DNA of 64,000 nt from an uncultured Bacteroidales bacterium. GTDB taxonomy: Bacteria > Bacteroidota > Bacteroidia > Bacteroidales > Paludibacteraceae. Position 1 is the first letter of the stretch. Every line of letters begins with the position of its first letter. Location: assembly GCA_902778935.1 (NCBI GenBank), contig CACYZT010000008.1, forward strand, positions 1 to 64,000, in the 5' to 3' direction. Of this stretch, positions 3,372 to 62,186 are shown piece after piece. The notes under the pieces are model-generated. The model saw only the letters and a program-made list of their open reading frames with translations, did no database searches and had not been told where the DNA came from. The position numbers and the translations under genes are program-made.

Positions 3372-3446
3372 GACGATTAGACGATTGACGAGGTACGCGG
3401 AAAAATCGTCAATAAATCGTTAAATCGTAAATCGTTAAATCGTAAA
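3372..3446. repeat. 7/8-base tandem repeat tract (GACGATT and AAATCGT units)
   Basis: GACGATT units at 3372-3393 are followed at about 3405-3446 by alternating 7- and 8-base AAATCGT/TAAATCGT units, filling nearly the whole mdh-to-SPT gap. The reverse complement of GACGATT, AATCGTC, is the unit of the tract before dnaG at 28485, so two distant gaps share the same unit. Confidence 0.8.
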
Positions 3447-3454
3447 TTATTCCT

Positions 3455-5454: not shown

Positions 5455-6353
5455 TGAAGCATATTCGTATCATATCGCCGTCGGGAGTGATTGACTCTTC
5501 GTTCATCGAAGGGGCAAGTGCGCGTTTGCGCGCGTGGGGATATAAGGTGAGCGAAGGCGTTCACGCGCGTGACGCATGGGGACGCTTTGCCGGCAGGGAC
5601 GAAGACCGTCTGTCGGACTTGATAGAAGCACTCAATGACGCTTCGGTAGATTTTATCCTTTGTTCGCGCGGCGGATACGGACTACAGCGTATCATCGATC
5701 GTGTACCGGCTATCCACAAGCCCATCATCGGTTTCAGCGATATCACGGCTCTGCATCAACTTTCGGGTATCCATCATCAGCCCTCTGTGCACGGTATCAT
5801 GTGCAAGCATATCGCTTCGCTGCCGGAAGAGAGCGAACCGATACAAGCGCTGAAGAAACTGCTTTGTGGCGAAGGAATCGAATACCGCTGGGCGGCTCAT
5901 CGTCTGAACAGACCGGGCAAAGTTTCTGCGCCTCTCATCGGCGGAAACCTCTCCGTCCTCTACGGCCTGCAAGGCACAGCGTACGGACTGGCGTCCGTAA
6001 TTCAAAATTCAAGATTCAAGATTCAAAATTCAAGTCCGATATTGCTGATAGAAGATATCTGCGAGCGGCACTATCATATTGACCGGATGATGCGCAATCT
6101 GCGCATGAGCGGTGTGCTGGCTCGGTTGAGCGGATTGATTGTTGGTCAGTTCAGCGATTGTGATGACGACCCGCTCATGCAGCAAACGGTCTATGAGACC
6201 ATCAAAGAAGTAGTCGCTGACTACGACTACCCTGTTCTTTTCAACGCCCCGTTCGGGCATGTAGAGCACAATCTGCCGTTATGGCTGAATCATCATTCGA
6301 CCATCGAGTGTGACACGGATAGTGTCCTGCGCTTTGACGGCGTCCAGGTATAA
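5454..6353 (+). CDS. ldcA: S66 family LD-carboxypeptidase
   Basis: The 299-residue protein fits the LD-carboxypeptidase/MccF family, serine peptidases that trim the terminal D-alanine from murein tetrapeptides during peptidoglycan recycling. The N-terminus RIISPSGVID, CSRGGYGLQRIID near residue 70, the presumed nucleophile in GFSDIT (S95), the glutamate in LLIEDICE near residue 199 and the histidine in FGHVEHN near 269 match the Ser-Glu-His arrangement of the family. Residues about 182-193 (QNSRFKIQNSS) are encoded by five 7-base units and have no counterpart expected in the family; they precede the strand carrying the catalytic glutamate. The gene overlaps the previous stop and runs tail-to-tail into the next (-) gene by 75 bases. 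Confidence 0.85.
   Translation: MKHIRIISPSGVIDSSFIEGASARLRAWGYKVSEGVHARDAWGRFAGRDEDRLSDLIEALNDASVDFILCSRGGYGLQRIIDRVPAIHKPIIGFSDITALHQLSGIHHQPSVHGIMCKHIASLPEESEPIQALKKLLCGEGIEYRWAAHRLNRPGKVSAPLIGGNLSVLYGLQGTAYGLASVIQNSRFKIQNSSPILLIEDICERHYHIDRMMRNLRMSGVLARLSGLIVGQFSDCDDDPLMQQTVYETIKEVVADYDYPVLFNAPFGHVEHNLPLWLNHHSTIECDTDSVLRFDGVQV
5999..6033 (+). repeat. In-frame heptamer tract in the S66 gene (5 x 7 bases)
   Basis: Units AATTCAA, AATTCAA, GATTCAA, GATTCAA, AATTCAA. Three units equal seven codons, so the peptide repeats with a seven-residue period (IQNSRFK, IQNSS). Confidence 0.85.
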
Positions 6354-8926: not shown

Positions 8927-9382
8927 ATTTTTGGGCTAAAAAGTTCTTATGCAATGTATGGCGCAAAAGTAAATAAACATAGATAAACACTTTTGAATGC
9001 TTTTGAGCTTCGCTCTATGCGTGCTTAGCTGCTAAAACTCACTTGTGTGCAAGCACCCAGATGACTTTTACCATCTAATCCCACACTCTAACGAGTTAAA
9101 GCCTTCAAAAGCAATAAACATAAATAAAATTCGCAGCTGTCACAAAGTATAAAGTAGAAAGTAAAAAGATCGGCTACGCCTGACAGACCATTGCATTGTT
9201 AGATGAAAGATGATAGATGATAGGCTTAGGGGGAAAGGGATGTCATACATGTAACCTAGGTATTACCTAGGTATCACCTACGTATAACCTAGGTTTGGGT
9301 TTGTTTTTGTCTTGTTTGCCTCTTACTTGCCCCTTACTTGCCCCTTACTTGCCCCTTACTTGATTCCTCGTTGCAGAAACAA
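8927..9382. other. Repeat-rich intergenic region without a gene
   Basis: No open reading frame here looks real. The gap holds two short heptamer tracts (9144-9171 AAAGTAT-like; 9202-9222 GATGATA-like), one lone ACAG-hairpin-CGGTCT-type unit (minus strand, 9169-9189, TCAGGCGTAGCCG flanked by GGTCTG), the 11-base arrays listed separately and a terminator. An AAACATAGATAAAC 14-mer at 8975-8988 recurs at 12037-12050 on the other side of the secreted-protein gene. It is the densest mixture of repeat types in the window. Confidence 0.7.
9252..9371. repeat. Two adjoining 11-base-period arrays
   Basis: 9252-9295 holds four units of TAACCTAGGTA type (each containing CCTAGG or CCTACG); after a 21-base spacer, 9317-9371 holds TGCCTCTTACT, three perfect TGCCCCTTACT units and a decayed fifth. 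Both have an exact 11-base period despite unrelated sequence. The CCTAGG units are palindromic. Confidence 0.85.
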
Positions 9383-15046: not shown

Positions 15047-15062
15047 CTCTCAAAATCGGGTA

Positions 15063-15070
15063 CAAAGTTA
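15063..15070 (-). promoter_or_regulatory. Possible -7 element for the MATE-pepD operon
   Basis: Minus-strand TAACTTTG sits 17 bases upstream of the MATE start codon. No TTG is found at the usual 20-base spacing because the upstream DNA is a TTGAAAA heptamer tract, so this is a weaker call. Confidence 0.5.
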
Positions 15071-15080
15071 CAAAAAATAA

Positions 15081-15108
15081 TTGAAAATTGAAAATTGAAA
15101 ATTGAAAA
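15081..15108. repeat. Perfect heptamer tract (4 x TTGAAAA) between divergent promoters
   Basis: Four identical TTGAAAA units lie exactly between the -7 element of the MATE gene and the -33 element of the outward-facing beta-barrel gene. Gain or loss of units would change the spacing of the divergent promoters. Confidence 0.85.
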
Positions 15109-15109
15109 T

Positions 15110-15140
15110 TTGCATATTTCATAAAAAAATAGTAATTTTG
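15110..15140 (+). promoter_or_regulatory. Promoter for the beta-barrel gene at 15151 (TTG-N20-TAATTTTG)
   Basis: TTGCATATTTC at 15110 and TAATTTTG at 15133-15140 with 20-base spacing. The ATG begins only 11 bases after the -7 element, so the transcript would have a leader of only a few bases. Confidence 0.75.
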
Positions 15141-15150
15141 CAGCCGATTT

Positions 15151-15918: not shown

Positions 15919-15941
15919 AGGTCTTCGGACCTTTCTTTTTT
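15917..15941 (+). terminator. Terminator with UUCG tetraloop
   Basis: AAAGGTC-TTCG-GACCTTT followed by CTTTTTT. The stem begins inside the stop codon of the beta-barrel gene. Confidence 0.85.
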
Positions 15942-15956
15942 CCCCATAAATAGGTA

Positions 15957-15987: not shown

Positions 15988-16006
15988 CACCCGATTTTGG
16001 TAAAAC

Positions 16007-21099: not shown

Positions 21100-21100
21100 A

Positions 21101-21128
21101 AATCTCAAATATCAAATTTCAAATGTTA
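21101..21128. repeat. Heptamer tract between rfbC and rfbD
   Basis: AATCTCA, AATATCA, AATTTCA, AATGTTA: four 7-base units that fill the rfbC-rfbD junction and reach into the rfbC stop codon. The same AATCTCA and AATTTCA units occur at 48971-49005. Confidence 0.8.
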
Positions 21129-23005: not shown

Positions 23006-24030
23006 ATTATATTGCATATTGTATCGAAATTGCCCGTCGTGGGGAGTATTATGTGGCGCCTAATCCGATGGTGGGTGCCGTATTAGTTGACGCGGACGGA
23101 CAAATCATAGCGGAAGGATGGCATCAGAAATACGGCGAGGCACACGCGGAGGTGAATTGCTTCCGTCATCTCGAAGCATCGGAGCATCGGGATATCGACT
23201 TGTCGAAATGCACTCTTTTCGTCAGTTTGGAGCCGTGTAGCCATTACGGCAAAACACCTCCGTGCGCCAAACTGATTATCGAGAAAAAAGTAGGACGTGT
23301 CGTCGTGGGGATGCTTGATCCGAACCCGCTGGTAGCCGGCAAAGGTGTGCAGATGTTGCGGGACGCAGGGATAGAAGTGATCGTTGGGGTGCTGGAGAAC
23401 GAGTGCCGCGAACTGAACAAACGTTTTCTCTCTCTGCACGAGAAACACAGACCGTACGTGGTTCTGAAATGGGCGCAGACCGGAGACGGATTTGTGGACC
23501 GCAAGCGAGCAGTGGACAATGGACGATGGACCATGGACAATGGACACCTGAACGGCGCACTGGCTATCTCAACGGCAGAGACGAAGAAACTGGTACATAA
23601 GATGCGGGCGGAGAATATGGCGATTATGGTAGGGACGAACACCGTACTGATGGACAACCCGCGGTTGCTGAATACCCATTGGGAAGGCAGAAACCCGATA
23701 CGCGTCACCTTGGACAGACACGGAGTCATACCTGCCGATGCACGTATTTTATCCGATGAATCCGAGACAATTGTCTATCGCGAGCATACCGATTGGCCCT
23801 TCGTTCTGGACGACTTGGCGAAACGCAACATCCATTCCATCCTGGTGGAAGGCGGACCTACCCTCCTCCGGCATATTATTGAAACCGGCATTTGGGATGA
23901 GATGCATATCGAGGTAGCACCCGAATTGAACATCGGCGACGGAGTAGCCGCACCGGACATTACGCTACCTGACGAATACGAGACCATCGACGGACATCGG
24001 TTATACACCATAATGAACAGCGAAATATGA
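22993..24030 (+). CDS. ribD: Bifunctional riboflavin deaminase/reductase
   Basis: The 345-residue protein performs two steps of riboflavin synthesis: deamination and then reduction of the pyrimidine intermediate. The N-terminal deaminase has APNPMVGAVLV, the zinc ligand motif HAEVN and PCSHYGKTPPC; the C-terminal reductase begins near residue 155 and has GTNTVLMDNPRL and LVEGGPTLL. Residues 174-185 (VDNGRWTMDNGH) are encoded by five 7-base GGACnAT units and lie where homologues have a short loop. Its first codons double as the promoter of the divergent prmC. The stop overlaps the next gene (ATGA), starting an operon that runs into surA- and OstA-like genes. Confidence 0.92.
   Translation: MEYANYIAYCIEIARRGEYYVAPNPMVGAVLVDADGQIIAEGWHQKYGEAHAEVNCFRHLEASEHRDIDLSKCTLFVSLEPCSHYGKTPPCAKLIIEKKVGRVVVGMLDPNPLVAGKGVQMLRDAGIEVIVGVLENECRELNKRFLSLHEKHRPYVVLKWAQTGDGFVDRKRAVDNGRWTMDNGHLNGALAISTAETKKLVHKMRAENMAIMVGTNTVLMDNPRLLNTHWEGRNPIRVTLDRHGVIPADARILSDESETIVYREHTDWPFVLDDLAKRNIHSILVEGGPTLLRHIIETGIWDEMHIEVAPELNIGDGVAAPDITLPDEYETIDGHRLYTIMNSEI
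23514..23548 (+). repeat. In-frame heptamer tract in ribD (GGACnAT x 5)
   Basis: GGACAAT, GGACGAT, GGACCAT, GGACAAT, GGACACC. The reverse complement unit ATTGTCC occurs in the OstA-like gene at 26237, and GGACAAA/GGACAAT units recur at 59157 and 62122. Confidence 0.88.
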
Positions 24031-24860: not shown

Positions 24861-26205
24861 AAAAATATTACTTTTGCTATTGGCTATTGGCTACTGGCAA
24901 TTGGTTTACGCGGAAAGTGTGATTGATGAAGTCATCTGGGTGGTAGGCGACGAGGCTATCTTGCGCAGCGAAGTGGAAGAAGAGCGTTTGCGTGCGCAGT
25001 ACGAAGGACAACAGATTCACGGCGACCCCTATTGCGTCATTCCCGAGCAGATAGCGGTTCAGAAACTGTTCCTCCACCAGGCGGTACTCGACTCTGTGGA
25101 AGCAAACGAATCGAGCGTAAGCCACCAGGTGGATATGCGACTCAATTATTACATCAACCAAATCGGTTCGAAAGAAAAGATGGAAGAGTACTTCCGCAAA
25201 CCGAGTAGCGAGATTCGCGAAGAAATGATGACCACCGTCCGCAATCAGATGATTATCCAGCAGATGCAAGCCAAACTGACAGCGGATATCAAACCGACAC
25301 CGGCGGATATACGTCGTTATTACAACTCCCTCCCTATGGATTCAATACCGATGATGCCGGCGCAAGTAGAGGTTCAGATTCTTAGTTTCGAACCGCCCGT
25401 GCCCGTTGAGGAGACCGAGCGTATCAAACAGCGCTTGCGTGAGTTCACAGAGCGTGTTCAGAACGGGACGGCGGACTTTAGTATGCTCGCCCGTCTCTAT
25501 TCGGAGGACACCGAGAGTGCCAAACGAGGCGGAGAGTTGGGATTCGTCGGACGAGGCCAGCTTGTTTCGGAGTTCGCCGAAGTGGCGTTTAACCTCAATG
25601 ACCCAAAACGCGTCAGCCGAATCGTGCAAACGGAGTACGGATACCATATCATCCAACTCATTGAGAAAAAAGGCGAACGTATCAACTGCCGTCATATCCT
25701 CCTTCGTCCCCGTATCAGCGCTTCGGATAAGATTCGCGCTATTGAGCGACTCGATAGTATTCGCCATCAGATATTGGCGGACAGCCTGCAGTTTGAGCAA
25801 GCCGTCATCCGCTTCTCGCAGGACAAGAACACCGTCATGAACGCCGGTCTGATGATTAACCCGAACACCGGAAGTAGCCGGTTTGAGTACCAGGACTTGG
25901 CTCCGGAGATAGCCAAGCAGATTTACAGCCTCAACGAAGGCGATATCTCGCAGCCTTTTGTGATGATGGACCAGACCAAGAATCGCGAAGTGTGCGCTAT
26001 CGTACGGGTGAAGAAGAAAACGGATGTGCATCGGGCTAACCTCACCGATGATTTCCAGGCTATCAAGGCGATGCTCGAGCAACAGATGAGTACCGAACTA
26101 CTGCACAACTGGATTTTGAAAAAACAGAAAACCACCTTCATACAGATTGACCCGGAGTGGCAAGGTTGCGACTTCGAATACCCCGGATGGATTCACGAGA
26201 AATGA
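24853..26205 (+). CDS. surA: SurA-like periplasmic peptidyl-prolyl isomerase
   Basis: The 450-residue protein carries a Sec signal peptide, an N-terminal chaperone region (VIDEVIWVVGDEAILRSEVEEE, a typical SurA opening), and two parvulin domains at about 170-275 (LYSEDTESAKRGGELGFVGRGQLVSEFAEVAF, GYHIIQL) and 276-385 (RHILLRPRISASDK, ISQPFVMMD). SurA escorts outer-membrane barrel proteins across the periplasm. The hydrophobic core of the signal peptide (LLAIGYWQL) is encoded by four 7-base GCTATTG-type units. The gene overlaps both neighbours, and the next is an OstA-like LPS transport gene, so the operon serves outer-membrane assembly. Confidence 0.88.
   Translation: MSRKILLLLLAIGYWQLVYAESVIDEVIWVVGDEAILRSEVEEERLRAQYEGQQIHGDPYCVIPEQIAVQKLFLHQAVLDSVEANESSVSHQVDMRLNYYINQIGSKEKMEEYFRKPSSEIREEMMTTVRNQMIIQQMQAKLTADIKPTPADIRRYYNSLPMDSIPMMPAQVEVQILSFEPPVPVEETERIKQRLREFTERVQNGTADFSMLARLYSEDTESAKRGGELGFVGRGQLVSEFAEVAFNLNDPKRVSRIVQTEYGYHIIQLIEKKGERINCRHILLRPRISASDKIRAIERLDSIRHQILADSLQFEQAVIRFSQDKNTVMNAGLMINPNTGSSRFEYQDLAPEIAKQIYSLNEGDISQPFVMMDQTKNREVCAIVRVKKKTDVHRANLTDDFQAIKAMLEQQMSTELLHNWILKKQKTTFIQIDPEWQGCDFEYPGWIHEK
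24876..24903 (+). repeat. Heptamer tract encoding the SurA-like signal peptide
   Basis: GCTATTG, GCTATTG, GCTACTG, GCAATTG: four 7-base units that encode part of the hydrophobic core. A similar GCTATTG unit ends the tract in ileS at 48884-48918. Confidence 0.82.
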
Positions 26206-27767
26206 GAATTCGTTTCTACATAGTACTTATAGGTCTATTGTCCTTTGTCCTTTGTCCTATGTCCTTCAGCCAGACCATGGTGTATCTGGAGCGGGCTGAG
26301 CACTTGAATTTCGACCAAGAGCGAATAGCCGACGCCCAGATTCTCACGGGTAATGTGCTGTTTCGTCACGACGATGCGCTGATGTATTGCGATAGTGCCT
26401 ATTTCTATGAGAACAGCAATTCGCTCGATGCCTACGGACATGTGCGGCTGGTACAAGGCGATACCGTAATGGGCTTTGGTGACAAACTGTTCTATGACGG
26501 GAATACGAAAGTAGCCCGTCTGAGACGTCATGTGAAATTCATTCACGGCCGCGCGGATGAGAACCCCACCATCCTAACGACGGATAGCCTGAACTACGAC
26601 CGTGCTGCGGGTGTCGCTTATTATTTCACGGGAGGAACGGTTAGAGACTCGCTCAACACCTTAACCTCCGTGCGCGGCAATTACCGTCCGAATACCAAAA
26701 AAGCAATCTTTAGCAAGGAAGTCAAATTGGTGAATCCGAAATTCATTCTCACGAGCGATACCCTGCTCTACGACACAGGTACTAAAGTGGCGGACATCAT
26801 CAGTCCGACTGACATCGTCTATGAAGAAGAGACGGATATCGCTTCCTCGCGAGGCTGGTACAATACGGATAACGAGCAATCGATGTTACTGGACCGCTCT
26901 ACTATCCACCACGTGGACGGGCGGTTCCTCACCGGTGATACGATCTATTACGACAAGCGCATCGGTTTCGGCGATATCATCGGAAATATGGTCATGATTG
27001 ATTCCTCGCAAAATGCAACCCTATACGGCCAGTACGGCCAGATGTGGGAGGAAGACAGCCGCGGTTACGCTACGGACAGCGCACTCATGGTCGATTGGTC
27101 CGATACGGCGCACATGACGTATATCCACGCAGACACGCTCTATACACGCGAACTACACTATACCGATAGTGCTCTGGCGGATAGCACCTATCGCCGAGTC
27201 CGGGCTTATTACGGAGTGCGCGTCTATAGGGACGACATGCAGATGGTCTGCGATTCGATGGTCTATCTCGGTTCGGACTCTACTATGCATCTCTATATCA
27301 AACCGATTTGCTGGACGGAGAACCAGCAGATATCGGCGGATAGCATCATTGTCTATATTGTCAACAATACCGTGGAGCACGCCGTTGGAAACGGAAACGC
27401 ACTCTGCGTGATTGAGGACTCGCTCGATTATTACAACCAGATGAGCGGAAAAGAAGTGACGATGTATATCCGGGATGATGAATTGCGCTTAATCGACATG
27501 AGCGGCAATGCGCTCACTATCTATTATGCCAAAGAGAACGACGGCGAATATGTGGGACTCAATACCACCGAAAGCAGTTTTATCCGGATGTTCCTCGAGG
27601 AGCAGAAAATACACCATATTCGCTTTACCAAAGAGACGACAGGTGTGCTCTACCCCATGGACCAGATTCCTCCGGGTGGAGACCGGCTGGCGCTCTTCTT
27701 CTGGGCGAACGAACAACGCCCTACCGACCCGCAGGACGTGTTCCGAAAAGTAAATAATGAAAAATAG
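26202..27767 (+). CDS. OstA-like lipopolysaccharide transport protein
   Basis: The 521-residue secreted protein has an N-terminal signal (FYIVLIGLLSFVLCPMSFSQ) and then OstA/LptA-like beta-jelly-roll repeats, seen as alternating segments such as DALMYCDSAYFYENSNSLDAYGHV, GDTVMGFGDKLFYDG and DTIYYDKRIGFGDIIGNM. Such proteins form the periplasmic bridge or plug that carries LPS to the outer membrane. The start at the ATG overlapping the SurA-like stop (ATGA at 26202) is preferred; the longer frame begins inside the previous gene. The signal peptide core is encoded by four 7-base ATTGTCC-type units. Confidence 0.82.
   Translation: MRIRFYIVLIGLLSFVLCPMSFSQTMVYLERAEHLNFDQERIADAQILTGNVLFRHDDALMYCDSAYFYENSNSLDAYGHVRLVQGDTVMGFGDKLFYDGNTKVARLRRHVKFIHGRADENPTILTTDSLNYDRAAGVAYYFTGGTVRDSLNTLTSVRGNYRPNTKKAIFSKEVKLVNPKFILTSDTLLYDTGTKVADIISPTDIVYEEETDIASSRGWYNTDNEQSMLLDRSTIHHVDGRFLTGDTIYYDKRIGFGDIIGNMVMIDSSQNATLYGQYGQMWEEDSRGYATDSALMVDWSDTAHMTYIHADTLYTRELHYTDSALADSTYRRVRAYYGVRVYRDDMQMVCDSMVYLGSDSTMHLYIKPICWTENQQISADSIIVYIVNNTVEHAVGNGNALCVIEDSLDYYNQMSGKEVTMYIRDDELRLIDMSGNALTIYYAKENDGEYVGLNTTESSFIRMFLEEQKIHHIRFTKETTGVLYPMDQIPPGGDRLALFFWANEQRPTDPQDVFRKVNNEK
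26237..26264 (+). repeat. Heptamer tract encoding the OstA-like signal peptide
   Basis: ATTGTCC, TTTGTCC, TTTGTCC, TATGTCC; reverse complement of the GGACAAW unit used in ribD and in the signal peptides at 59157 and 62122. Confidence 0.88.
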
Positions 27768-27774
27768 AAGATAT

Positions 27775-28485
27775 ATGAAAAAGAGTTTTGTAACACTTTT
27801 AGTTTTGTTTGTAGCCGTCAGTGCGATGGCTGTGGACCTGCCCAAACAGGGTTTTGGTTTGCAGGTCGGATGGGCGCAACCTATCTTACGTATCAATGAT
27901 GCAACTCATAAGGATACGCTCAATAATGTCATTAAGATGAACGGCTTGAAAGTCGGTGTACTGTATGACGCCAGTTATATAGCCGGATTCGGTAGTACGA
28001 TGGGTATCAACTACACGCTCGGTATCTACAATGGCGGATGGAAATCCACCAACGCCTACGGTATGCCTTATCCGCGGAGCCGTACCATAATTTCGTACCA
28101 TCAGATGGAAGTGTTCGTAGATTGGCAGTATAAGTTCGAGATTGCCAAGGAGACCTATCTCACCCTCTATACCGGCCCGACAATCCAGTGCGGCGTCGGA
28201 CTTTCCATGCGCGTGGACAAGCAAGAGGATGAAGGTATCCCGTACGAGACGATGCGTTACGATGGTTATACCAACGATGTACACGACCAGCAGTTCAAGC
28301 GACTCAATGTCACTTGGGGCGTCGGAGCCGCTTTCCAGTACAAACGCTATTTCTTGCGCGGTGGATATGATTTCGGTCTCTTGAATCCGCATAAATATGT
28401 CGATTATGAGAGTGGCATACACTCCCGCGGAAGACTCGACCAGTGGAGCATCAAAATCGGTATGTTCCTCTGGTACGCAAACTAA
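27775..28485 (+). CDS. Outer-membrane beta-barrel protein, paralogue of 15151
   Basis: The 236-residue protein has a Sec signal peptide (MKKSFVTLLVLFVAVSAMA) and a barrel-like pattern, with TLYTGPTIQCGVGLSM and GGYDFGLLNPHKY resembling the protein at 15151. I choose the ATG at 27775 because the residues before the lysines in the longer frame do not improve the signal. It lies between the OstA-like gene and dnaG, with a heptamer tract immediately after its stop codon. The function is unknown; it may be a client or partner of the assembly factors in the same operon. Confidence 0.72.
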   Translation: MKKSFVTLLVLFVAVSAMAVDLPKQGFGLQVGWAQPILRINDATHKDTLNNVIKMNGLKVGVLYDASYIAGFGSTMGINYTLGIYNGGWKSTNAYGMPYPRSRTIISYHQMEVFVDWQYKFEIAKETYLTLYTGPTIQCGVGLSMRVDKQEDEGIPYETMRYDGYTNDVHDQQFKRLNVTWGVGAAFQYKRYFLRGGYDFGLLNPHKYVDYESGIHSRGRLDQWSIKIGMFLWYAN

Positions 28486-28519
28486 ATCGTCAATCGTCAA
28501 TCGTCAAATCGTCAATCCC
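28485..28519 (+). repeat. Heptamer tract directly before the dnaG start
   Basis: AATCGTC, AATCGTC, AATCGTC, AAATCGTC, AATCCCT. It occupies the position of a ribosome-binding site and ends at the TTG start codon of dnaG. Confidence 0.82.
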
Positions 28520-30490: not shown

Positions 30491-30514
30491 AATCGTCTAA
30501 TCGTCTAATCGTCA
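30491..30514 (+). repeat. 8-base tandem tract between dnaG and the radical SAM gene
   Basis: AATCGTCT, AATCGTCT, AATCGTCA. It is related to the 7-base AATCGTC units in front of dnaG, showing that one unit sequence can exist with a 7- or 8-base period. Confidence 0.8.
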
Positions 30515-44416: not shown

Positions 44417-44472
44417 GTTAAAGTGTTAAAGCGTTAAACTGTTAAAGCGTTAAACTGTTAATTTGTTAAAGC
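44417..44472 (+). repeat. 8-base tandem tract (GTTAAAGC x 7) before trmD
   Basis: GTTAAAGT, GTTAAAGC, GTTAAACT, GTTAAAGC, GTTAAACT, GTTAATTT, GTTAAAGC: seven consecutive 8-base units fill the yidD-trmD gap up to five bases from the trmD ATG. Confidence 0.9.
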
Positions 44473-44476
44473 GTAT

Positions 44477-45274: not shown

Positions 45275-45280
45275 CACCGT

Positions 45281-45350: not shown

Positions 45351-45383
45351 ATGTACTAAAAAAGATTTCTATAACCCAAAAGT

Positions 45384-45438
45384 GTAGTCGGTTTAGTATC
45401 GGTTTAGTATCGGTTTTGAGTCGGTTTTGAGTCGGTTT
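45384..45438. repeat. Intergenic 11-base-period array, five units
   Basis: GTAGTCGGTTT, AGTATCGGTTT twice, TGAGTCGGTTT twice. The period is exact; the sequence is unrelated to the arrays near 9.3 kb, though GAGTCGG is close to the reverse complement of the CCGACTC in the array at 320. Confidence 0.88.
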
Positions 45439-45515
45439 TCCCCTTACCACGCTGCGCACATTTTTGACTAAGGTGCATGTTTTGGGCATAAAAAATCAAT
45501 TATGCACAAAAATTT

Positions 45516-45584: not shown

Positions 45585-48500
45585 ATGAAGAAATTTAACG
45601 AGTACAAAGGATTGAATTTGCCGGCACTGAGTAAAGAGGTGCTGGAGCAGTGGGAGAAAGAAGGGTTGTTCGAGAAGAGCATATCGACCCGCGAGGGACA
45701 TCCGCAGTTCCTGTTCTTCGAGGGACCGCCTTCGGCGAACGGAATGCCGGGTATTCACCATGTGATGGCGCGCACGATAAAAGACACCTTCTGCCGCTTC
45801 AAGACGATGCAGGGCTATCAGGTTCGCCGCAAGGCCGGTTGGGACACACACGGTCTGCCGGTAGAGCTGGGCGTGGAGAAGATGCTGGGTATCACCAAAG
45901 AAGATATCGGCAAGAAAATCAGCGTAGATGAATACAACGCTGCCTGCCGTCGCGAGGTGATGAAATACACGGCGGAGTGGACCAACCTGACCAAACAAAT
46001 GGGATATTGGGTGGACCTTGACAACCCCTATATCACGTATGACAACAAGTATATCGAGACGCTGTGGTACCTGCTCAAAGAGCTGTACAAGAAAGGCTAT
46101 CTGTATAAGGGTTACACTATTCAGCCCTATTCGCCGGCTGCCGGAACGGGTTTGAGTTCGCATGAGTTGAACCAACCGGGCTGTTACCGCGATGTGAAGG
46201 ACCTTACGTGCACGGCACGGTTCAAATTAAAAGTTAAAAATTCAACATTAAAAATTGAGGCGCCGACATATATCATCGCGTGGACCACAACGCCTTGGAC
46301 GCTGCCGTCCAACACCGCTTTGTGTGTAGGACCGAAGATTGACTACGTGGAGGTGGAGACACCGGCGGGTGACCATATCATCCTTGCCGAAGCACGTCTC
46401 GATGCCTATAAGAAAGAGCTCTGCGGCGTTGATGCTGATGGTAACTTACTGGAGCCGAAAATCATTGCGCGCTACAAAGGTACGGAACTCGTCGGCCTGG
46501 AGTACGAACCTCTCTTCCCGTGGGTGAACCCGGGTAAAGGAGCCTTCCGTGTTATTCCGGGCGACTACGTGACGACCGAAGACGGTACAGGTATCGTCCA
46601 TATCGCGCCTACCTTCGGTGCAGACGATAAGAAAGTGGGTGACGCAGCCGGCGTGCCGGGACTGTATATGCAGACCAAGAACTACGGTCCGCGTCCGATG
46701 GTTGATTTCACCGGTAAATACTGGAAAGTGGAAGACCTGGACGAGGCATGGTATCAAGCGAACGTGAACGATGCGCTCTATAGCAAATACGCCGGTCGAT
46801 GGGTGAAGAACGCCTACGACCCGCAGTTTACCGTGGACGGGAAATATGACGAAGCCGCAGCCGGCAAAGCCGAGACATTGGATTTGCACCTCTGCCTGGA
46901 GATGAAAGCCGACGGCCGTCTGCTACGCAGCGAGAAGCATGTGCACACCTATCCCCACTGCTGGCGTACCGATAAACCTGTGCTTTACTACCCGCTGGAT
47001 AGTTGGTTCATCCAGTCCACCAAAGCGCGCGATGAGATGATAGCGCTCAACAAGACCATCAACTGGCAACCCGAATCCACCGGCACAGGCCGCTTCGGCA
47101 AATGGCTGGAGAACCTGAACGACTGGAACCTGAGCCGCTCGCGTTATTGGGGTACTCCGCTGCCTATCTGGCGTACCGAAGACGGCAAAGAGGAGATTTG
47201 TATCGGTTCTATTGCAGAGCTGTTCGCTGAGATAGACAAGTCCGTGAAGGCAGGCTTTATGAAAGCCAACCCGTGGCCGAAACACAAGGTGGGCGATTAC
47301 AGCAAAGCGAACTACGATCCTTCCGTCATCGACCTGCACCGTCCGTACGTGGACGCTATCATCCTCGTTTCGCCGAGCGGCAAGCCGATGAAGCGTGAGC
47401 TGGACCTCATCGATGTTTGGTTCGACAGCGGCGCGATGCCTTATGCACAGAACCACTATCCGTTCGAGAACGCCGACCTGCCGCGTACCGCGGATTTCAT
47501 CTCCGAAGGTGTGGACCAGACACGCGGTTGGTTCTTCACGCTGCATGCCATCCACACGATGATTGAAGGCACGGTGGCGTACAAAAACGTCATTTCCAAT
47601 GGTCTTGTGCTCGATAAGAACGGCAATAAGATGTCCAAACGTCTGGGCAATGCGGTAGATCCGTTCGGCGCACTGGACAAATACGGAGCTGACGCCGTAC
47701 GCTGGTATATGCTGACCAATTCCAGTCCGTGGGAGAACCTCAAGTTCGACCCCGAAGGCGTGGATGAGGTGCGCCGTAAGTTCTTCGGAACGCTCTATAA
47801 CACCTACGGTTTCTTCGCACTCTATGCGAACGTGGACAATTGGGAACCCACAACCGGCGCCAAAGCTGAATTCTCCGAGATTGACAAATGGATTCTCTCC
47901 AAACTCAATTCGCTCATCAAAGAGGTGACGGAAGCCTATGAGGCCTATGAACCGACAAAAGCCGGACGTGCTATCTCTGATTTTGTGCAGGACGACCTGA
48001 GCAACTGGTATGTGCGTCTGAACCGTAAGCGTTTCTGGGGCGGTGAGATGAATGCCGACAAACAGGCAGCGTACGAAACGCTATACACCTGTCTGAAGAC
48101 CGTGGCACAACTGATGGCACCGAACGCACCGTTCTATGCCGACAGACTATACCGCGATTTAACCGGAGAAACGGTTCACCTCAGCCAATGGCCAACAGCC
48201 AACGCCAAAGCCATCGACGCAGTCTTAGAGCGCCAGATGTACCTGGCTCAACAGGCTACATCTATGATTCTCAGTCTGCGTAAGCGTGCGGAGAAGAACG
48301 TGCGCCAACCTCTGCAGAAAGCCGTTATTCCTACTCCCGACCAAGAAACGACGAACGCCCTCTTGCACGTAGCCGACCTCATCAAGAGCGAAGTGAACGT
48401 GAAGGAGCTGGTCATCGTGCCGGCTGAGCAGAGCGAAATCAAGCTGGTCAAGAAAATCAAACCGAACTTCAAAGTGCTCGGTAAGAAAGTAGGCGCCAAC

Positions 48501-48964: not shown

Positions 48965-49432
48965 ATGAAAAATTTCAAATCTCAAATCTCAAATTTCAAA
49001 TTATTGCTTGTAGCAATATTGGGCGTAGCGCTCAGCAGTTGTAACATGCTCCCGGAGCAACCCGAGTATCGTCTGTCGGACCTTCAGGCGTTATGGCTGG
49101 AGAACGGAACGGAGCACTACGTGCGGTTCACCACCGAGCAGAGTGACGAAGCCGGCTATCAGTACGGCCGCGAATGGGACGAAGCGGAGGATATCACCGA
49201 GCAGGACCTCATCGACGCTCGCCAGGAATTGGGTCACCCGGGTAACGGTTGGTTCAAGTACCAATTCGAGACCAAAGGTAATCTGACGGAGATTCACCTC
49301 ATGGATAACGGCGGAGCGGAGATACCCAAGGTGTATGTGGTATCCAAACTGACCAGCACCGAACTGGAGTACTACGAGAAAGACTATAAGAATATCAAGT
49401 TTTCGTTCTCTAAAGTCGTTACGGCAAAATGA
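48965..49432 (+). CDS. Small lipoprotein, unknown function
   Basis: The 155-residue protein has a lipoprotein signal (LLLVAILGVALSSC, Cys near 26) and a mature part beginning NMLPEQPEYRLSDLQALWLENGTEHYVRFT, with EWDEAEDITEQDLIDA and a C-terminal KFSFSKVV. No known domain is recognised. The first 13 codons (KNFKSQISNFK) are encoded by five 7-base units. It starts two bases after ileS and overlaps the AsmA-like gene (ATGA), so it may act with that protein at the envelope. Confidence 0.68.
   Translation: MKNFKSQISNFKLLLVAILGVALSSCNMLPEQPEYRLSDLQALWLENGTEHYVRFTTEQSDEAGYQYGREWDEAEDITEQDLIDARQELGHPGNGWFKYQFETKGNLTEIHLMDNGGAEIPKVYVVSKLTSTELEYYEKDYKNIKFSFSKVVTAK
48971..49005 (+). repeat. Heptamer tract encoding the lipoprotein N-terminus
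   Basis: AATTTCA, AATCTCA, AATCTCA, AATTTCA, AATTATT (5 x 7). The same units occur between rfbC and rfbD at 21101-21128. Confidence 0.88.
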
Positions 49433-57208: not shown

Positions 57209-57280
57209 TTTCTTTAACAGCATTACCTGTTCAAGTTCGACGGGTTTTATCTCAGCCTAAGCACCCCGAATGAAGATTGA
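57204..57280 (-). promoter_or_regulatory. TPP (thiamine pyrophosphate) riboswitch
   Basis: On the minus strand the core elements appear in order: TTCATTCGGGGTGC, GGCTGAGATAAAACCC, GAACTTGAACAGG and TAATGCTG-TTAAAGAA. These match the THI box consensus. The closing P1 stem can form between TTCATT (57269-57274) and AATGAA (57204-57209), which includes the receptor's ATG, so ligand binding would hide the start codon. Confidence 0.88.
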
Positions 57281-57301: not shown

Positions 57302-59251
57302 TTAAAATTTATAGCTTACGCCTATCAAGCCGTTGATACCTTGGGAACGATAGCCGTAATATAGTTCGTTTTTGCGATGAAGCCAGTTATTGATTTGCAG
57401 GAAGAGCGTCAGGTTCGGCTTGGTTTCCGGCCGTAGGATATGGGCGTCGGCATTCGTCTTACTTTTGGCTTTTCCCACCCACATACGGTATTCGACACCG
57501 AGGTCGAGGTCAATCGTCGGCTTGAGGATATGCTCGCCGTCGGACGCAAGCGCGAGACGGCTACCCTTAAACCGGTTGTCCGAATAGAGCGACCAATGTT
57601 TGTCGATACGTCCGTCGATACGCAATCCCAACTGCCAGTTAGCCCGGTCATAAACGGTTGTATTCGTTCCGGCATTGACAGCATTGATCTCTTCGCAGGG
57701 ATAAGCAAAGAGATAGCCCACTTTCTCGTGTTCAAACGCATTCCAGAAATAATAGTCACCATGGAGGTTGATGCGCACGATATCGCAATAGTGATAGTTC
57801 AGCTGTCCGCCTATCTTTCCGCAGCCGTAGTCGCTATAGGTATAGGCGAAATCGCCGGACATCATAGCGACCGTATTTCCATTCTTGAGCGGATAAATCG
57901 TCGAACCCTGCTCTGTATTGGCGATTAGCGTCATGTTGTCGTACTGGAGTGCATAACCGCCGTGTATCTCGAGCAGCAGGTCACTGTGAGGACGGATATG
58001 GAAGCCCAGTTCGGCATCGACCGGCGTATAACTCGCAGCATGGTGAGAGACGACACCCGGGTGAATAAGACGGTATCGGTTCGACTCCATATAGCTCTCC
58101 AAACTACCCAAACCATGACTGCCCGTCACATCGGCGTAGAGCGTGAGCCATTGTTTGGCTATCTGTGCCTCAAGATTGATATGGGGCGAAGGAGCAAACG
58201 TCAGGTTTTTGATGCCAGACAGGCTGTTCTGTCCGCGACCGATGTTCATATCCAGATTGACTCCTACATGGAGACGAATGCGGTTTCCTTCGTACGCATA
58301 GTATGGCTCAAAGCGGATGTTATGACGACTGTTGTACAGCGAGTCATCAATAGCCTGGGACAAAGAACCCAACTGCAGGAAGTTATTTTGCACATACGCT
58401 TTCGCTCCCACGTGATGGGCTTCGCTATGCCAGTCAAACGAGGCATGAGTACGCACTTGATGCTCCGTCACCGCACCGGGTTTGGAGAAGAGGTTATAAC
58501 CGGTCTGAACCTTGTACTGGACATCCTGCTTGGCGTTCGCTTTAATACCGACAAACACCTCCGCTGTCCAAAGGGACGTCTTGTCCATATCGGTTATCGT
58601 GTGCGGTGCGGGATACGCCATATCGTTCTTGGTCCACAACCCGAAACTGCGTGTCACGCCATCTGCGGCAGACGAACCGGCATAATCGTAGAAATGGCCG
58701 TACTTATGATAGTAAATATTCCCTCCGTTCACTCCAAAATAGAGATTGCAGGTCGAGAAAGTATGGGTGAAATTCATCCCTAACTTACTCTTGCTCAGCG
58801 TCGCAAGTCCCCACTCCGCCTTATGGTGGGCATAGATATCGAGGATGGAGTTCTTGCCGTCATCATGGCGATAACCGAAGTCGAACAAGGTATTGGGGTG
58901 TCCTAAACCCGCACGGATATAGCCATGGAAGGGTTGCGCAGCCGCAAAACGAGTCGGTTGGGACAGCAGGGGATGGAAAGCGGACGAAGGAGTCACCTCC
59001 GCCGTATAATCGGAGTACTCCACCGGCGCCGGTTCGATGGTCGTTTCCACCACCGCGGGTTTGGTCGAAACCTTACCTGCCGCCTGGATGACGGGCTGGA
59101 AATCCCGCTCCACGGTTACCGAACGGTTGAGCGCACTGTCGTTCTGCGCATATATAGGACAAAGGTAGAAGGACAATAGACACAGGACTAAAATGAGTCG
59201 TCCTATCGAATTTTGTCTTTCAGCGTAGCTGTCTATATTATTCCTCTTCAT
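57302..59251 (-). CDS. Outer-membrane beta-barrel protein, TonB-receptor-like without a plug
   Basis: The 649-residue protein has a signal peptide (LILVLCLLSFYLCPIYAQ), a short periplasmic N-terminal part (SVTVERDFQPVIQAAGKVSTKP, reminiscent of proline-rich linkers) and a long beta-barrel with many aromatic-flanked strands, ending GLIGVSYKF. No plug domain is visible. It overlaps the TPR gene by 14 bases and probably works with it as a two-component envelope complex. The signal peptide core is encoded by a 7-base tract nearly identical to that of the TPR gene. Confidence 0.72.
   Translation of the reverse strand: MKRNNIDSYAERQNSIGRLILVLCLLSFYLCPIYAQNDSALNRSVTVERDFQPVIQAAGKVSTKPAVVETTIEPAPVEYSDYTAEVTPSSAFHPLLSQPTRFAAAQPFHGYIRAGLGHPNTLFDFGYRHDDGKNSILDIYAHHKAEWGLATLSKSKLGMNFTHTFSTCNLYFGVNGGNIYYHKYGHFYDYAGSSAADGVTRSFGLWTKNDMAYPAPHTITDMDKTSLWTAEVFVGIKANAKQDVQYKVQTGYNLFSKPGAVTEHQVRTHASFDWHSEAHHVGAKAYVQNNFLQLGSLSQAIDDSLYNSRHNIRFEPYYAYEGNRIRLHVGVNLDMNIGRGQNSLSGIKNLTFAPSPHINLEAQIAKQWLTLYADVTGSHGLGSLESYMESNRYRLIHPGVVSHHAASYTPVDAELGFHIRPHSDLLLEIHGGYALQYDNMTLIANTEQGSTIYPLKNGNTVAMMSGDFAYTYSDYGCGKIGGQLNYHYCDIVRINLHGDYYFWNAFEHEKVGYLFAYPCEEINAVNAGTNTTVYDRANWQLGLRIDGRIDKHWSLYSDNRFKGSRLALASDGEHILKPTIDLDLGVEYRMWVGKAKSKTNADAHILRPETKPNLTLFLQINNWLHRKNELYYGYRSQGINGLIGVSYKF
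59157..59191 (-). repeat. Heptamer tract encoding the beta-barrel signal peptide
   Basis: Plus-strand units GGACAAA, GGTAGAA, GGACAAT, AGACACA, GGACTAA. The tract at 62122 differs at only two positions over 35 bases. Confidence 0.88.
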
Positions 59252-62186
59252 CGTTTTCCTCCTTTGTTACAGGTTTCTCTAATGCATCGAGTTGAGCGAG
59301 CCGTGCGCTGATAAGCGCGGGTATATCATCGCCGGTAGCGGTGTAGTTCTGCTGCAGAACCAGCAGGTACTGCCGTGCCTGGAACAGTTCGCCCCGCTCG
59401 CGGTTGATATCGCTGAGCAGTACTAACGCACGCGCCAGCCAATACTGCTGCTGCGTATTCATCCGAGTGAAGGACATCACCTCTTCTTCCGCAGCATCAA
59501 GGTCTTTGGCTTCGAAATAACTCTGCGCGAGCAGGTACTTAGCCTCAGCTCCCTGCGCTGTGCGCACTTCCTGGGACAGGACCTTCAAGTCCGGTTGCGC
59601 TTTGCTCCATTGTTTCATGGCGACATAGGCTTTCGCACGGCCGTAGAGTGCTTCGTTCTTCGTCTCCTCGCTTACGGGCGTGTCGCTCAATATCTGCTCG
59701 GCTATGTCAATCACCGCCTGATGACGACCGAGAGCCTGCGAGCAGCGAAGGATACCCAGTCGGGCCACCGTCAGGTTCTCACGCGTCGAAGCCAAGGAAT
59801 GCATGCGATAGAAAGCCTCCAGCGCACAAGCATAATCGCCTTTGTCATAGCATAGTTCCGCTACGCGGGTAGCCGCTTCCTCCTGATAGGGGTTAGCACT
59901 CATCTCCGCCAGCACGCGGTATTGGGCGAGCGCATCGTCGTTCTTGCCAAGGCGATAGTAAGAGTCCGCCAGGTAATAGCGCGCCGAGGTGCAATAACGT
60001 CCTCCGGCACAATACTTGGTGATATAATTGCTCAGGGAGACGGACGCTTTCCGGTAGGCAGCCTGCATGTACTGCATCTCGGCGGCGGCATAGAGCAACG
60101 AGTCCTCGGCGGTGGTGACATTCATATTCATCTTCGCGAGGTTCTTCGTATAAGCGAGATACTCGTTCACATTACCGGACTCGACATACAGCGTCTGGAG
60201 GGCATCGAGAGCCGTATAAGCCTCCTCGGTAGCCGGATATTTCTCGATTGTCTGACGGTAGGCTGTAATCGCCTGGTCGTTCTGGCCTAAGTTACGATAA
60301 AGCATAGCCCGTTCGAGCGAAGCCTTGCGCGCCAAGGTCGAGTGCGGATAAGCAGCAAGCATACTCTCATAGCTCTTGATGGCTCCGCTTTGGTCATTGA
60401 GTTGTAACTGGGCACGCGCGATCTCGTACATACCATCGTCAGCGTAATCCGATTTCGGATAGCGCTTCACCAACTCACGAAGCACACTGATTTTATCATT
60501 GTATTTATGCTGCAAGCCGAGCGCATAACCGCGTTGAAAGAGCGCATAGTCGGTTCCGGCTGCCTGCAGATTGCTCACCTGTGTATAGTAGGTAATCGCC
60601 TGCGGGAACTGACGGGCATTGAAATGGCAGTCACCCAACCGATTGAGTGCATCCGCATACGTCGGTTCGGTAGCCAACGCATCATCGATATACTGCGAGA
60701 AGGCATTACGCGCCTTGTCGTACTGCGCCTGCGAGAAACAGGTATAACCCTGCAGATAGCGAGCTATCGAATAATTGTCCGAGCGCTTGGCGTCCGGACG
60801 GGCGAAGAAGGCACTGAGGTCTTTCTCGCACTCGCTGTAGTTGCGCAGACGATAGTTAGCCTCCGCCCGCACATAGTATGCTTCGGTCGTATATTTGGAC
60901 GACTCGCCGGTATGGGCAATCACTTCGCTCATCCAGATAACCGACTCCTGCATTTTGCCTTGGAGGAAATTATCCACTCCCAGTTGATAGCGCAGGTATT
61001 GCTTCGTCTCGCGCATCTTAGGTGTAGGACGGTCAATCGAATCGAGCGTAGCGATGGCAGCCGCATAGTTCTTACTCTGCATCAAGGCATCGCTCAGCAG
61101 CTGATAAACCTTGCTCTCATGCTTGGAGTCGGGATACTGCTGCAAGAAGTCATTGAATGCCCGTACGGACTCTCCCAGCGCGCTGGAAGACTGATAGGTA
61201 CAGAGCGCATAGTTATACGCTGCCTCTTCGGTGATGGCAGGAGTAATCTTATAGTTCGTAGCAGCCTGGTAGGACAGTTTCGCCTGTTCGGGTTGACCGA
61301 GTTGGCGGTAGGCGTTACCCATCGTCAGACAAGCGGACTCGGACAGCGAATCGGGTTCCTGCTTCATCTGCTTGAGCGAGTTAACCGCCGCCTGGTAGTT
61401 ACCCAAGCGGTACTGCGCCATGCCGAGCATGAAGAGATCGTTTCGAACCAATTCCTCTTTGTTCGCCAACGCCGTCTGACGGTAACTGTCAAAATGGTCC
61501 ACCGCTGTGTGGTAGTCCTGCTTGCGATAACTCATCTCACCCAATATACGATGAAGCTCCGCATTATTGGGACTGTCGGGATAAGCGAAGAGCAAGTCAT
61601 TGGCGCGTTTCTCCGCCTCCTCGTAGTTACCCTGCGCATAGTAGATCTGCGTGATGTAATACGGTACGGTCTTGGCGTACGCAGGTTCATTCTCCAGCGT
61701 CTCCAAAGCCGGCAAAGCTTTGTCGTAACGCTCGAGTTTGTACATACAATAGGCGTAGTAATACGTTCCGCGTACTTTGTACCGGCTGTCCCCTTTGCTC
61801 AGATGGCTGAAGAAGAGAGAAGCACGCAGGTACTCCTGCATCATGAGATAGGCGTATCCGCGGTAGAACTGGTAGTCATCCTGATGCGCACGGCTCAGTT
61901 TCTTGGGTTCCACCGTCTCCAATATCTTCAGCGCCTGTTTGTAATGCCCTTTCTCCACCTGCAGCACGCCTTGCATGAACTTCACCTCATCCGTAAACGT
62001 GGTATAAGGGAAAGCCTGCAGGTACGCTTTGAGATCACGCTGTAACAATTTGTCGCGCCCGTCAAAACGAGCCTCCAGTTCGTTATAGCGCTGCTCCATC
62101 GGAGTTGTCTGGGCATACGAAGGACAAAGGTAGAAGGACAACAGACAAAGGACTAAAACAGCTCTTTGAGCGAAGCGGTCTAACAT
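59238..62186 (-). CDS. Large periplasmic TPR protein, 982 residues
   Basis: After a signal peptide (VLVLCLLSFYLCPSYAQ) the protein consists almost entirely of tetratricopeptide repeats, for example GHYKQALKILETVEPKKLS, YDKALPALETLENEPAYAK, YEEAEKRANDLLFAYPDSPNN, YRLGNYQAAVNSLKQM and YKSYESMLAAYPHSTLARKASLERA, about 20 in all. It ends in an acidic tail (TKEENDEEE). Such scaffolds bind other envelope proteins. It sits between potD and the beta-barrel gene, overlapping both, so a role together with them is likely. Its first codons contain one ACAG-hairpin-CGGTCT unit. Confidence 0.85.
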   Translation of the reverse strand: MLDRFAQRAVLVLCLLSFYLCPSYAQTTPMEQRYNELEARFDGRDKLLQRDLKAYLQAFPYTTFTDEVKFMQGVLQVEKGHYKQALKILETVEPKKLSRAHQDDYQFYRGYAYLMMQEYLRASLFFSHLSKGDSRYKVRGTYYYAYCMYKLERYDKALPALETLENEPAYAKTVPYYITQIYYAQGNYEEAEKRANDLLFAYPDSPNNAELHRILGEMSYRKQDYHTAVDHFDSYRQTALANKEELVRNDLFMLGMAQYRLGNYQAAVNSLKQMKQEPDSLSESACLTMGNAYRQLGQPEQAKLSYQAATNYKITPAITEEAAYNYALCTYQSSSALGESVRAFNDFLQQYPDSKHESKVYQLLSDALMQSKNYAAAIATLDSIDRPTPKMRETKQYLRYQLGVDNFLQGKMQESVIWMSEVIAHTGESSKYTTEAYYVRAEANYRLRNYSECEKDLSAFFARPDAKRSDNYSIARYLQGYTCFSQAQYDKARNAFSQYIDDALATEPTYADALNRLGDCHFNARQFPQAITYYTQVSNLQAAGTDYALFQRGYALGLQHKYNDKISVLRELVKRYPKSDYADDGMYEIARAQLQLNDQSGAIKSYESMLAAYPHSTLARKASLERAMLYRNLGQNDQAITAYRQTIEKYPATEEAYTALDALQTLYVESGNVNEYLAYTKNLAKMNMNVTTAEDSLLYAAAEMQYMQAAYRKASVSLSNYITKYCAGGRYCTSARYYLADSYYRLGKNDDALAQYRVLAEMSANPYQEEAATRVAELCYDKGDYACALEAFYRMHSLASTRENLTVARLGILRCSQALGRHQAVIDIAEQILSDTPVSEETKNEALYGRAKAYVAMKQWSKAQPDLKVLSQEVRTAQGAEAKYLLAQSYFEAKDLDAAEEEVMSFTRMNTQQQYWLARALVLLSDINRERGELFQARQYLLVLQQNYTATGDDIPALISARLAQLDALEKPVTKEENDEEE
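62122..62182 (-). repeat. Heptamer tract plus one hairpin unit at the TPR gene start
   Basis: Plus-strand heptamers GGACAAA, GGTAGAA, GGACAAC, AGACAAA, GGACTAA (62122-62156) are followed at 62158-62182 by ACAG-CTCTTTGAG-CGAAG-CGGTCTA. Two repeat classes adjoin and together encode residues 2-22. Confidence 0.82.

Follow-up and report, generated by a model that had tools for sequence, protein, structure and literature searches.

Results

The window, by which we mean the whole 64-kb stretch of DNA analysed here, holds dnaG and genes for LD-carboxypeptidase, RibD-like, PPIC-domain and OstA-like proteins and a class I tRNA synthetase, and short tandem arrays lie within and between genes (Table 1). 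The source organism is a rumen bacterium. Gene calls came from a simple script of our own, which missed some genes and starts. The sequence-only reading had listed 21 tracts of 7- or 8-bp units. Fourteen exceed chance, in that fewer than one such run at lag 7 or lag 8 would be expected in the window (5999, 9144, 9202, 15081, 20226, 21101, 23514, 24876, 26237, 28485, 30491, 44417, 46224 and 48971); the tract at 46224 is weak, with 0.7 runs expected. The other seven (3372, 44141, 48184, 48569, 48884, 59157 and 62122) are not above chance at the period given to them. The first of these adjoins the 15-bp array at 3413-3447, the tract at 48569 corresponds to a clean TTTCAAC array in the orthologue of relative G005, and those at 59157-59191 and 62122-62156 share 33 of their 35 bases across a distance of 3 kb. 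On the coordinates of ORFs and called genes, some six of the 14 (5999, 23514, 24876, 26237, 46224 and 48971) are genic, in agreement with the earlier estimate of roughly half. The array at 15079-15110 is overlapped by other ORFs, for example 14998-16131 on the minus strand.

Table 1. Tandem arrays and related tracts in the window; G numbers denote other genomes.
Feature	Position	Strand	Context
TAAATCGT/TAAATCG (7+8), 15-bp array	3413..3447	+	in spacer
AATTCAA x5, period 7	5999..6033	+	inside LD-carboxypeptidase (peptidase S66) gene
AAAGTAN, period 7	9144..9168	.	intergenic
GATGATA, period 7	9201..9223	.	intergenic
Two period-11 arrays (9254-9291, 9316-9362)	9254..9362	.	spacer common to both
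AATTGAA x4.6, period 7, perfect	15079..15110	.	intergenic by own gene call
Period-7 array	21100..21124	-	fills spacer of two minus-strand genes (called ends 21099, 21126)
TGGACAA, period 7	23513..23546	+	inside RibD-like gene; G003 array similar
GCTATTG, period 7	24876..24904	+	near 5' end of PPIC-domain gene
TTGTCCT, period 7	26238..26266	+	5' end of OstA-like gene; unit identical in G003
AATCGTC, period 7	28485..28517	+	~34 bp insertion between upstream gene's stop codon and dnaG
Period-16 array	29929..29981	+	inside dnaG; common to G003
AATCGTCT, period 8	30491..30513	+	directly 3' of dnaG stop
GTTAAAGC, period 8/16/24	44417..44474	+	
AGTCGGTTTTG, period 11	45386..45439	.	
Weak period-7 tract	46224..46258	+	inside class I tRNA synthetase gene; G003 similar
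AAATTTC/AAATCTC, period 7	48970..49002	+	start of ORF 48965-49432
Degenerate heptamer-like tract, array not above chance	59157..59191	-	5' end of ORF 57302-59251
Second copy of the 59157 tract	62122..62156	-	5' end of ORF 59238-62186

Across 864 kb of the source genome, 263 arrays of all periods were counted, compared with 7.3 in shuffled sequence. Period 7 leads with 66 arrays, followed by 8 (29), 11 (25), 15 and 16 (21 each), 22 (15) and 14 (8); periods 9 (5), 10 (3), 12 (2) and 13 (0) are weak, as are 5 and 6 with at most five each. The shuffles yielded none at period 7, 1.3 at 8 and none at 11. The sequence-only observation largely holds, with array counts at period 7 far above those at 5, 6, 9 and 10 and those of the shuffles; its claim of a constant period is wrong in part, since 8, 11, 15/16 and 22 peak as well. 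Within the window, runs scoring at least 12 number ten at period 7, two at 8, four at 11 and five at 16, against a mean of 0.0 at each of these periods in 20 shuffles of codon blocks. Plain autocorrelation over the whole window is uninformative, giving no lag-7 excess (0.2508, the values for lags 5 and 8 being 0.248 and 0.2486), because the arrays occupy little of it. Genus mates, counted without shuffles, also have a sharp period spectrum in which heptamers are most abundant. Exact two-copy duplications had no period spectrum beyond that of the arrays.

Arrays are densest in short co-directional spacers and are also present in length-variable protein loops. The 141 co-directional spacers of 30-100 bp contain 55 arrays and the 29 divergent ones of 100-300 bp contain 4; spacers above 300 bp hold 41 arrays (69 co-directional) and 11 (17 divergent), at a lower density per kb. 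Well inside genes, 65 arrays have period 7, compared with 5 at period 6, 11 at 9 and 12 at 12, so that 7 leads and these arrays are not mainly of periods divisible by three. A homologous protein from another genome spans 50 of the 78 period-7/8 arrays in this class on both sides. Slippage by a single 7-bp unit would break a gene, yet coding arrays are common, which argues that simple slippage is insufficient. Some arrays at gene 5' ends resemble signal peptides by eye.

Orthologous places were compared using one genome per species. Among 165 adjacent-gene pairs, an array (period 7, 8 or 14-16) was present in both species in 17, in the source only in 27, in the relative only in 17 and in neither in 104. 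The 17 shared cases derive from 10 source-genome spacers, and by eye two clearly have the same unit, about two more have similar units and the remainder differ. For orthologous spacers 20-150 bp long, the joint presence of arrays (14/10/9/20) is only borderline, with a Fisher p of 0.057 for pairs that are not independent. The dnaG region is illustrative: the array at 28485 is absent from G003, G002 and G021, G014 has another array there (TTGTACA-like), and the place directly after dnaG (30491) has other heptamers in G014, G017 and G021. Different heptamers likewise occupy the PPIC-domain gene position (24876) in G002 and G014, and in G014 the RibD-like protein is shorter by 36 bp near 23513-23546. 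In the alignment at the 44417 array, a 24-bp block and a further 5 bp are missing from G003, whose counterpart of the 48970 array is shorter and without periodicity. One loop of a TtcA-like protein has a period-8 array in the source genome and a period-7 or period-14 array in four of 29 other loci, two of these four with similar units. At a conserved place (30 loci listed), arrays adjoin the rubrerythrin gene in some species and are absent in others. Earlier reports of unit replacement at orthologous places were not found in a limited literature search.

Period-7 and period-8 arrays together number 87-280 per Mb in the source genome and six close relatives; six further members of the genus have 0-37 and seven other-family genomes 0-17, and a 50-kb E. 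coli control had none. In a tree of 21 Pol I proteins the seven dense genomes group together with support 1.000. No repair defect accounts for the clade, and loss of repair genes as the only cause was rejected: MutS1 and RecJ were found in 30 of 31 genomes each, and of 41 genomes 38 have the ExoVII large subunit, 34 a Y-family polymerase and 39 the Pol I 5' nuclease domain. SbcC and SbcD were not found in the source genome and 15 of 18 genus mates, several of these genomes being incomplete, and no SbcC match among the 31 genomes searched reached the curated cut-off. The other-family genomes G026, G031 and G032 lack SbcCD and have no period-7 or period-8 arrays in the 40-60 kb scanned in each, and SbcCD loss is therefore not sufficient. 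The Pol I 3'-5' exonuclease domain, searched with Pfam in five proteins, had no match in the source genome and G013, a partial match in G010 and a full match in G026 and G031. Short forms of Pol I also occur in G011, G013, G015 and G016, where array density is low, so that Pol I state and arrays are at best correlated, and this inside a single clade.

Discussion

The arrays described here keep their period, whereas their unit is in many cases another one in another species, a pattern that suggests a copying error of inherent step size and not an inherited element. This change of unit at a kept period, together with an array density in one clade that far exceeds that of its relatives, supports the proposal of the sequence-only reading that a shared generating process, and not descent from one repeat, underlies the tracts. 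We favour, as rather probable, a lineage-specific mutational process in which slippage or reiterative copying keeps to a register of 7-8 nt and the products are mostly neutral. According to this model, the growing strand would slip back or be copied reiteratively during DNA synthesis, preferably in steps of 7-8 nt but also of 11, periods 15/16 and 22 being likely compounds, and several tandem units would be made from whichever sequence is present locally. The products would survive where sequence is free, namely in co-directional stop-start gaps, at gene 5' ends and in protein loops of variable length, from which all but in-frame products would be lost. Arrays would then decay by substitution and be replaced, so that sister species could share place and period with different units. 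The step would reside in the polymerase, several units would often arise at once and most arrays would be functionless.

It is possible, if unlikely, that slippage merely trims ready-made multi-unit arrays that spread by copy and paste within a few kb and mainly in a single orientation, for instance through template switching where the replication fork is single-stranded. Among 171 array pairs less than 3.5 kb apart, 14 have a unit in common on the same strand (permutation mean 3.5; none of 2000 permutations reaches 14), and flanking homology is absent in 14 of the 15 pairs listed. The array at C2 5150 of the source genome was left out of the unit-sharing permutation tests because it lies inside a tandem gene duplication. 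The excess of shared units between near neighbours counts for the favoured process as well. The near-identical degenerate tracts at 59157 and 62122 and the recurrence of an AGTCGAA unit in two adjacent coding genes of G014 are consistent with such copying, as is the requirement of coding period-7 arrays for in-frame multi-unit gains. However, 157 of the 171 pairs have no unit in common, and the excess weakens once contig G003 C20, which supplies six of the 14 sharing pairs, is removed (8 of 152; mean 2.5; 4 of 2000 permutations reach 8). No pair shares a unit in opposite orientation, as in 218 of 2000 permutations, but a looser search within 3 kb found 37 opposite-strand matches against 86 on the same strand. 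The differing units emphasised by the sequence-only reading are thus many but not fully independent, since some neighbours share one and the 16-bp arrays at 13055, 29929, 30730 and 37303 resemble, by eye, a single sequence family. A limited literature search found no earlier report of local unit sharing or of period 7 leading inside genes. Tentatively, and with considerable doubt, one may go further: a replication-linked process in this clade would write ready-made multi-unit arrays in a fixed 7-8 nt register from local sequence and recopy them, mostly on the same strand within about 3 kb, rewriting spacers and loops between species. Pol I without its proofreading domain, together with the absence of SbcCD, might enable such a process.

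Less likely still, the arrays may be functional mRNA spacers, providing for example stops in three frames and an A-rich start region, and selected for period and place rather than sequence. The 108 arrays in co-directional spacers of up to 200 bp start a median of 1 bp past the stop codon and end a median of 8 bp from the next start; a short spacer filled by an array would, however, be expected to show this span anyway. Of 136 arrays in co-directional spacers, 70 have three-frame stops on the coding strand; the opposite strand has them in 49, and permuting the unit columns yields 36.7 percent. This excess is too modest for such stops to be the main explanation. A translational role was suggested for TAACTGA arrays (MacGregor, 2015; PMC4679880, in the excerpts available), but many orthologous spacers have no array, and arrays are also found inside genes and between convergent genes.

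That the arrays reflect a general bacterial tendency towards heptamers, with nothing special about the lineage, is very improbable: periods 7 (27) and 8 (17) do lead in 75 loci of other Bacteroidota, but density is about 33 per Mb there against 110 in the source genome, and the other-family genomes fall lower still. An artefact of metagenome assembly is scarcely credible, for although the nearest named relatives, and probably the source genome, are metagenome assemblies, most arrays are shorter than about 70 bp, many coding arrays keep frame, and separately assembled genus mates carry arrays, some at orthologous places.

The STRR repeats of filamentous cyanobacteria are, like the arrays described here, dispersed degenerate heptanucleotide tandem repeats, but have a few fixed sequences. 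The sequence-only reading knew of no such system in Bacteroidales, but the phenomenon is not new to Bacteroidetes: TAACTGA heptamer arrays have been described in five Bacteroidetes, with two sets in Paludibacter propionicigenes, and some of the five carry other heptamer repeats too (MacGregor, 2015; PMC4679880, as excerpted). Those repeats, known from Beggiatoaceae, Cyanobacteria and some Bacteroidetes, resemble ours in being intergenic heptamers near start codons, some overlapping the preceding gene's stop codon and some genic, but were studied as one fixed unit where the arrays listed here have very many (PMC4679880, same excerpts). The GGGAATC and GGGGA(T/C)T repeats of Xanthomonas and Nostoc likewise occupy matching gene gaps of sister species with variable length and sequence, but form a single G-rich family with G-quadruplex potential, whereas our units are many and mostly A+T-rich (PMC4692102, available portions). 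An element with a minisatellite is described in Porphyromonas gingivalis (PMC4596501, in part).

Heptamers are the commonest category of long SSR in most genomes (Mrazek et al., 2007, as cited in the available text of PMC4679880), and have been ascribed to slippage of a polymerase that contacts about 7 nt (Mrazek et al., 2007, via excerpts of PMC4679880 and PMC4692102). The source genome, too, has tandem units of 5-11 bp that run longer than chance, with the same dominance of heptamers. As quoted in those excerpts, however, coding-region repeats are most likely to be multiples of three (Mrazek et al., 2007), whereas period 7 leads even inside genes here; the peaks at 15/16 and 22 lie beyond the 1-11 range of that survey, and the present arrays mark one dense clade with other units at orthologous places. 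With both heptamer dominance in bacteria and heptamer arrays in Bacteroidetes published (PMC4679880, in part), the kind of array is already known. Polymerase contact length is the proposed answer to why heptamers dominate, and no test of it was found in the limited literature searched. A dense clade whose spacers and loops can be set side by side in dozens of species opens this question to test, and the arrays also show how short repeats can come to rewrite the spacers between genes and the loops of proteins.

Results

The window comes from a 2.18 Mb genome in 41 contigs whose nearest DnaG proteins (77-81 percent identity) belong to four rumen-type Bacteroidales assemblies, one of them a Paludibacteraceae from sheep. 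Arrays were scored at each lag with +1 for a match and -2 for a mismatch, and codon blocks shuffled inside short windows served as controls. At a score of at least 12 the window holds 10 arrays of period 7, two of period 8, four of period 11 and five of period 16, against a mean of 0.0 at these periods in 20 shuffles. The sequence-only reading had listed 21 tracts of a constant period of 7 (8 in two of them); 14 of these pass, but those at 3372, 44141, 48184, 48569, 48884, 59157 and 62122 fail at the period assigned to them.

Across 864 kb of the source genome 263 arrays were found over all periods, against a mean of 7.3 in three shuffles. Period 7 leads its neighbours, with 66 arrays against 29 at 8 and at most five at each of 5, 6, 9 and 10. 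Constancy of period holds only in part: the main step is 7-8, but there is a second step at 11 (25 arrays) and there are further counts at 14 (8), 15 (21), 16 (21) and 22 (15), with at most five at each of 12, 13 and 17-21. Periods 14-16 probably represent two steps of 7 or 8. Raw, unshuffled counts were 64 at 7, 11 at 8, 17 at 11 and 12 at 14 in six genus mates (493 kb), and 27 at 7, 17 at 8, 12 at 22 and 12 at 33 at 75 loci of other Bacteroidota (1.32 Mb).

Arrays in intergenic spacers by gene orientation and spacer length, as arrays/spacers (our own simple gene calls; periods 4-24, score at least 11)
Orientation	<30 bp	30-100 bp	100-300 bp	>300 bp
Co-directional	8/240	55/141	22/77	41/69
Divergent		0/4	4/29	11/17
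Convergent	2/20	2/9	3/10	6/15

Per kilobase, arrays are most frequent in short co-directional and convergent spacers (the convergent classes with two arrays each) and least frequent in long ones. The 108 arrays in co-directional spacers of up to 200 bp begin a median of 1 bp from the stop codon and end a median of 8 bp before the next start. Deep in genes 7 is the commonest period (65 arrays, versus 5 at 6, 13 at 8, 11 at 9, 12 at 12 and 21 at 16). A homologous protein of another genome spans 50 of 78 such period-7/8 arrays; among these 50, 39 have one or more relatives with a shorter sequence around the array, a count biased upward by use of the largest length difference, and 11 have none. 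Since one 7-bp step shifts the reading frame, coding arrays would have been acquired either in a single block or by unit numbers divisible by three.

The same place can carry different units in different species. In the spacer 3' of dnaG, compared at 17 loci, the source genome has AATCGTCT, G014 TACTGAA, G017 TTTAGTG and G021 TTTAGAG; TTTCAAC-like and AAATCTC-like tracts occur in G024 and G003 and a weak 15-bp tract in locus L022. The spacer is all but absent in G002, G005, L023, L024 and L113, and no array is evident in the other five loci. Upstream of dnaG about 34 bp of AATCGTC in the source genome are lacking in G003, G002 and G021; G014 has a TTGTACA-like array there. A loop of a TtcA-like protein (top NCBIfam match TtcA, under its cut-off), aligned at 30 loci, carries a period-8 array in the source genome, period 7 in G002, G014 and G042 and period 14 in G045, the units of G002 and G045 being alike; weak runs of some other period appear in four further loci, and none in 21.

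Among 165 orthologous gene pairs from 11 relatives, an array is present in both species in 17 (10 source-genome spacers), in just the source genome in 27, in just the relative in 17 and in neither in 104 (Fisher p 0.001, the pairs not being independent); with spacers of 20-150 bp in both species the counts are 14/10/9/20 (p 0.057). Some arrays keep their unit: it is shared with G003 at 23513 and 26238 and also in one spacer, where G003 has fewer copies.

Some neighbouring arrays share a unit. Less than 3 kb apart, 16 of 147 pairs do so on the same strand and none on opposite strands, while beyond 50 kb on one contig same-strand sharing is 1.4 percent of 1226. With one array within a tandem gene duplication left out, 14 of 171 pairs below 3.5 kb share a unit, among them the tracts at 59157 and 62122 (33 of 35 bases equal), against a permutation mean of 3.5, and none of 2000 permutations reaches 14. 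Contig C20 of G003 supplies six of the 14; without it 8 of 152 pairs share a unit (mean 2.5; 4 of 2000 permutations reach 8). Opposite-strand sharing is zero here, but 218 of 2000 permutations give the same result, which leaves the strand effect insecure when taken alone; a looser criterion (14-16 bases, two mismatches, below 3 kb) gives 86 same-strand and 37 opposite-strand matches. In 14 of 15 pairs, mostly picked for a common unit, each 40-base flank matches at 7-16 of 40 positions, and the sole pair with matching flanks is a gene duplication.

Features located in the window and at other loci
Sequence	Position	Feature
Window	13055-13092; 29929-29981; 30730-30780; 37303-37343	16-bp arrays
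L023	10368-10428	16-bp array
L024	13431-13486	16-bp array
Window	28397-28530	dnaG start, probably the TTG just 3' of the array, not ATG 28397, because G003 and G002 have ATG at the corresponding position (by eye)
Window	45279-45353	Rfam match, Bacteroidetes FopS small RNA family, 32 bases 5' of the next entry
Window	45386-45439	Period-11 array
Window, minus strand	57193-57278	TPP riboswitch, Rfam score barely over threshold
L005	3509-5319	Two adjoining genes, glycosyltransferase-like by eye, that share a period-8 array and have flanks almost the same; a probable tandem gene duplication
L020	7618-9975	Pol I of the source genome

By eye, the 16-bp arrays resemble a single dispersed sequence family, approximately GCGGTCTNACAGCGAA, rather than many units. 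One sits within dnaG in both the source genome and G003. In G049 (locus L189) the TtcA loop seems to be filled by a related sequence.

Period-7 and -8 arrays reach 110 per Mb in the source genome, 87 in G002, 107 in G003, 273 in G005, 280 in G014, 200 in G017 (20 kb only) and 107 in G021. Other genus members have 25 (G010), 0 (G011), 33 (G013 and G016) and 37 (G015 and G018), and other families 17 (G027) or 0 (G025, G026, G028, G029, G031, G032); apart from the source genome and G017 the samples span 40-167 kb, so the low densities rest on few arrays. E. coli, sampled over 50 kb, had none. On a tree built from 21 Pol I proteins, the seven dense genomes fall into a single group (support 1.000).

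Discussion

The arrays are real and dense; they belong to a known kind of repeat and show features that are new for it. The sequence-only reading knew of no such system in Bacteroidales, a view overtaken by PMC4679880, which describes TAACTGA arrays in five Bacteroidetes. According to the same paper, Mrazek et al. (2007) found that heptamers are the most abundant class of repeat in most genomes. PMC4692102 reports that heptamer repeats of two Xanthomonas species lie mostly between the same genes with much variation in length and sequence, and restates the hypothesis of Mrazek et al. of slippage with a polymerase contact of about 7 nt. A limited keyword search of the open-licence literature did not find a change of unit between orthologous sites, the sharing of units by nearby arrays or the lead of period 7 inside genes.

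MutS, RecJ, ExoVII and the Pol I 5' nuclease were found in nearly all genomes searched. SbcC and SbcD were not found in the source genome or in 15 of 18 sampled genus mates (three have both), nor in outgroups without period-7/8 arrays. The source-genome Pol I gave no match to the 3'-5' exonuclease domain; short forms occur in the dense clade and some sparse relatives, and some genus mates have intermediate forms. Both absences are leads, not causes.

It seems doubtful that a replication-linked process writes multi-unit arrays in a 7-8 nt register and re-copies them, mostly on the same strand, within about 3 kb, a reading slightly weakened when a check showed the same-strand effect to be less firm. 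Most likely, the arrays arise by a lineage-specific mutational process and are mostly neutral.
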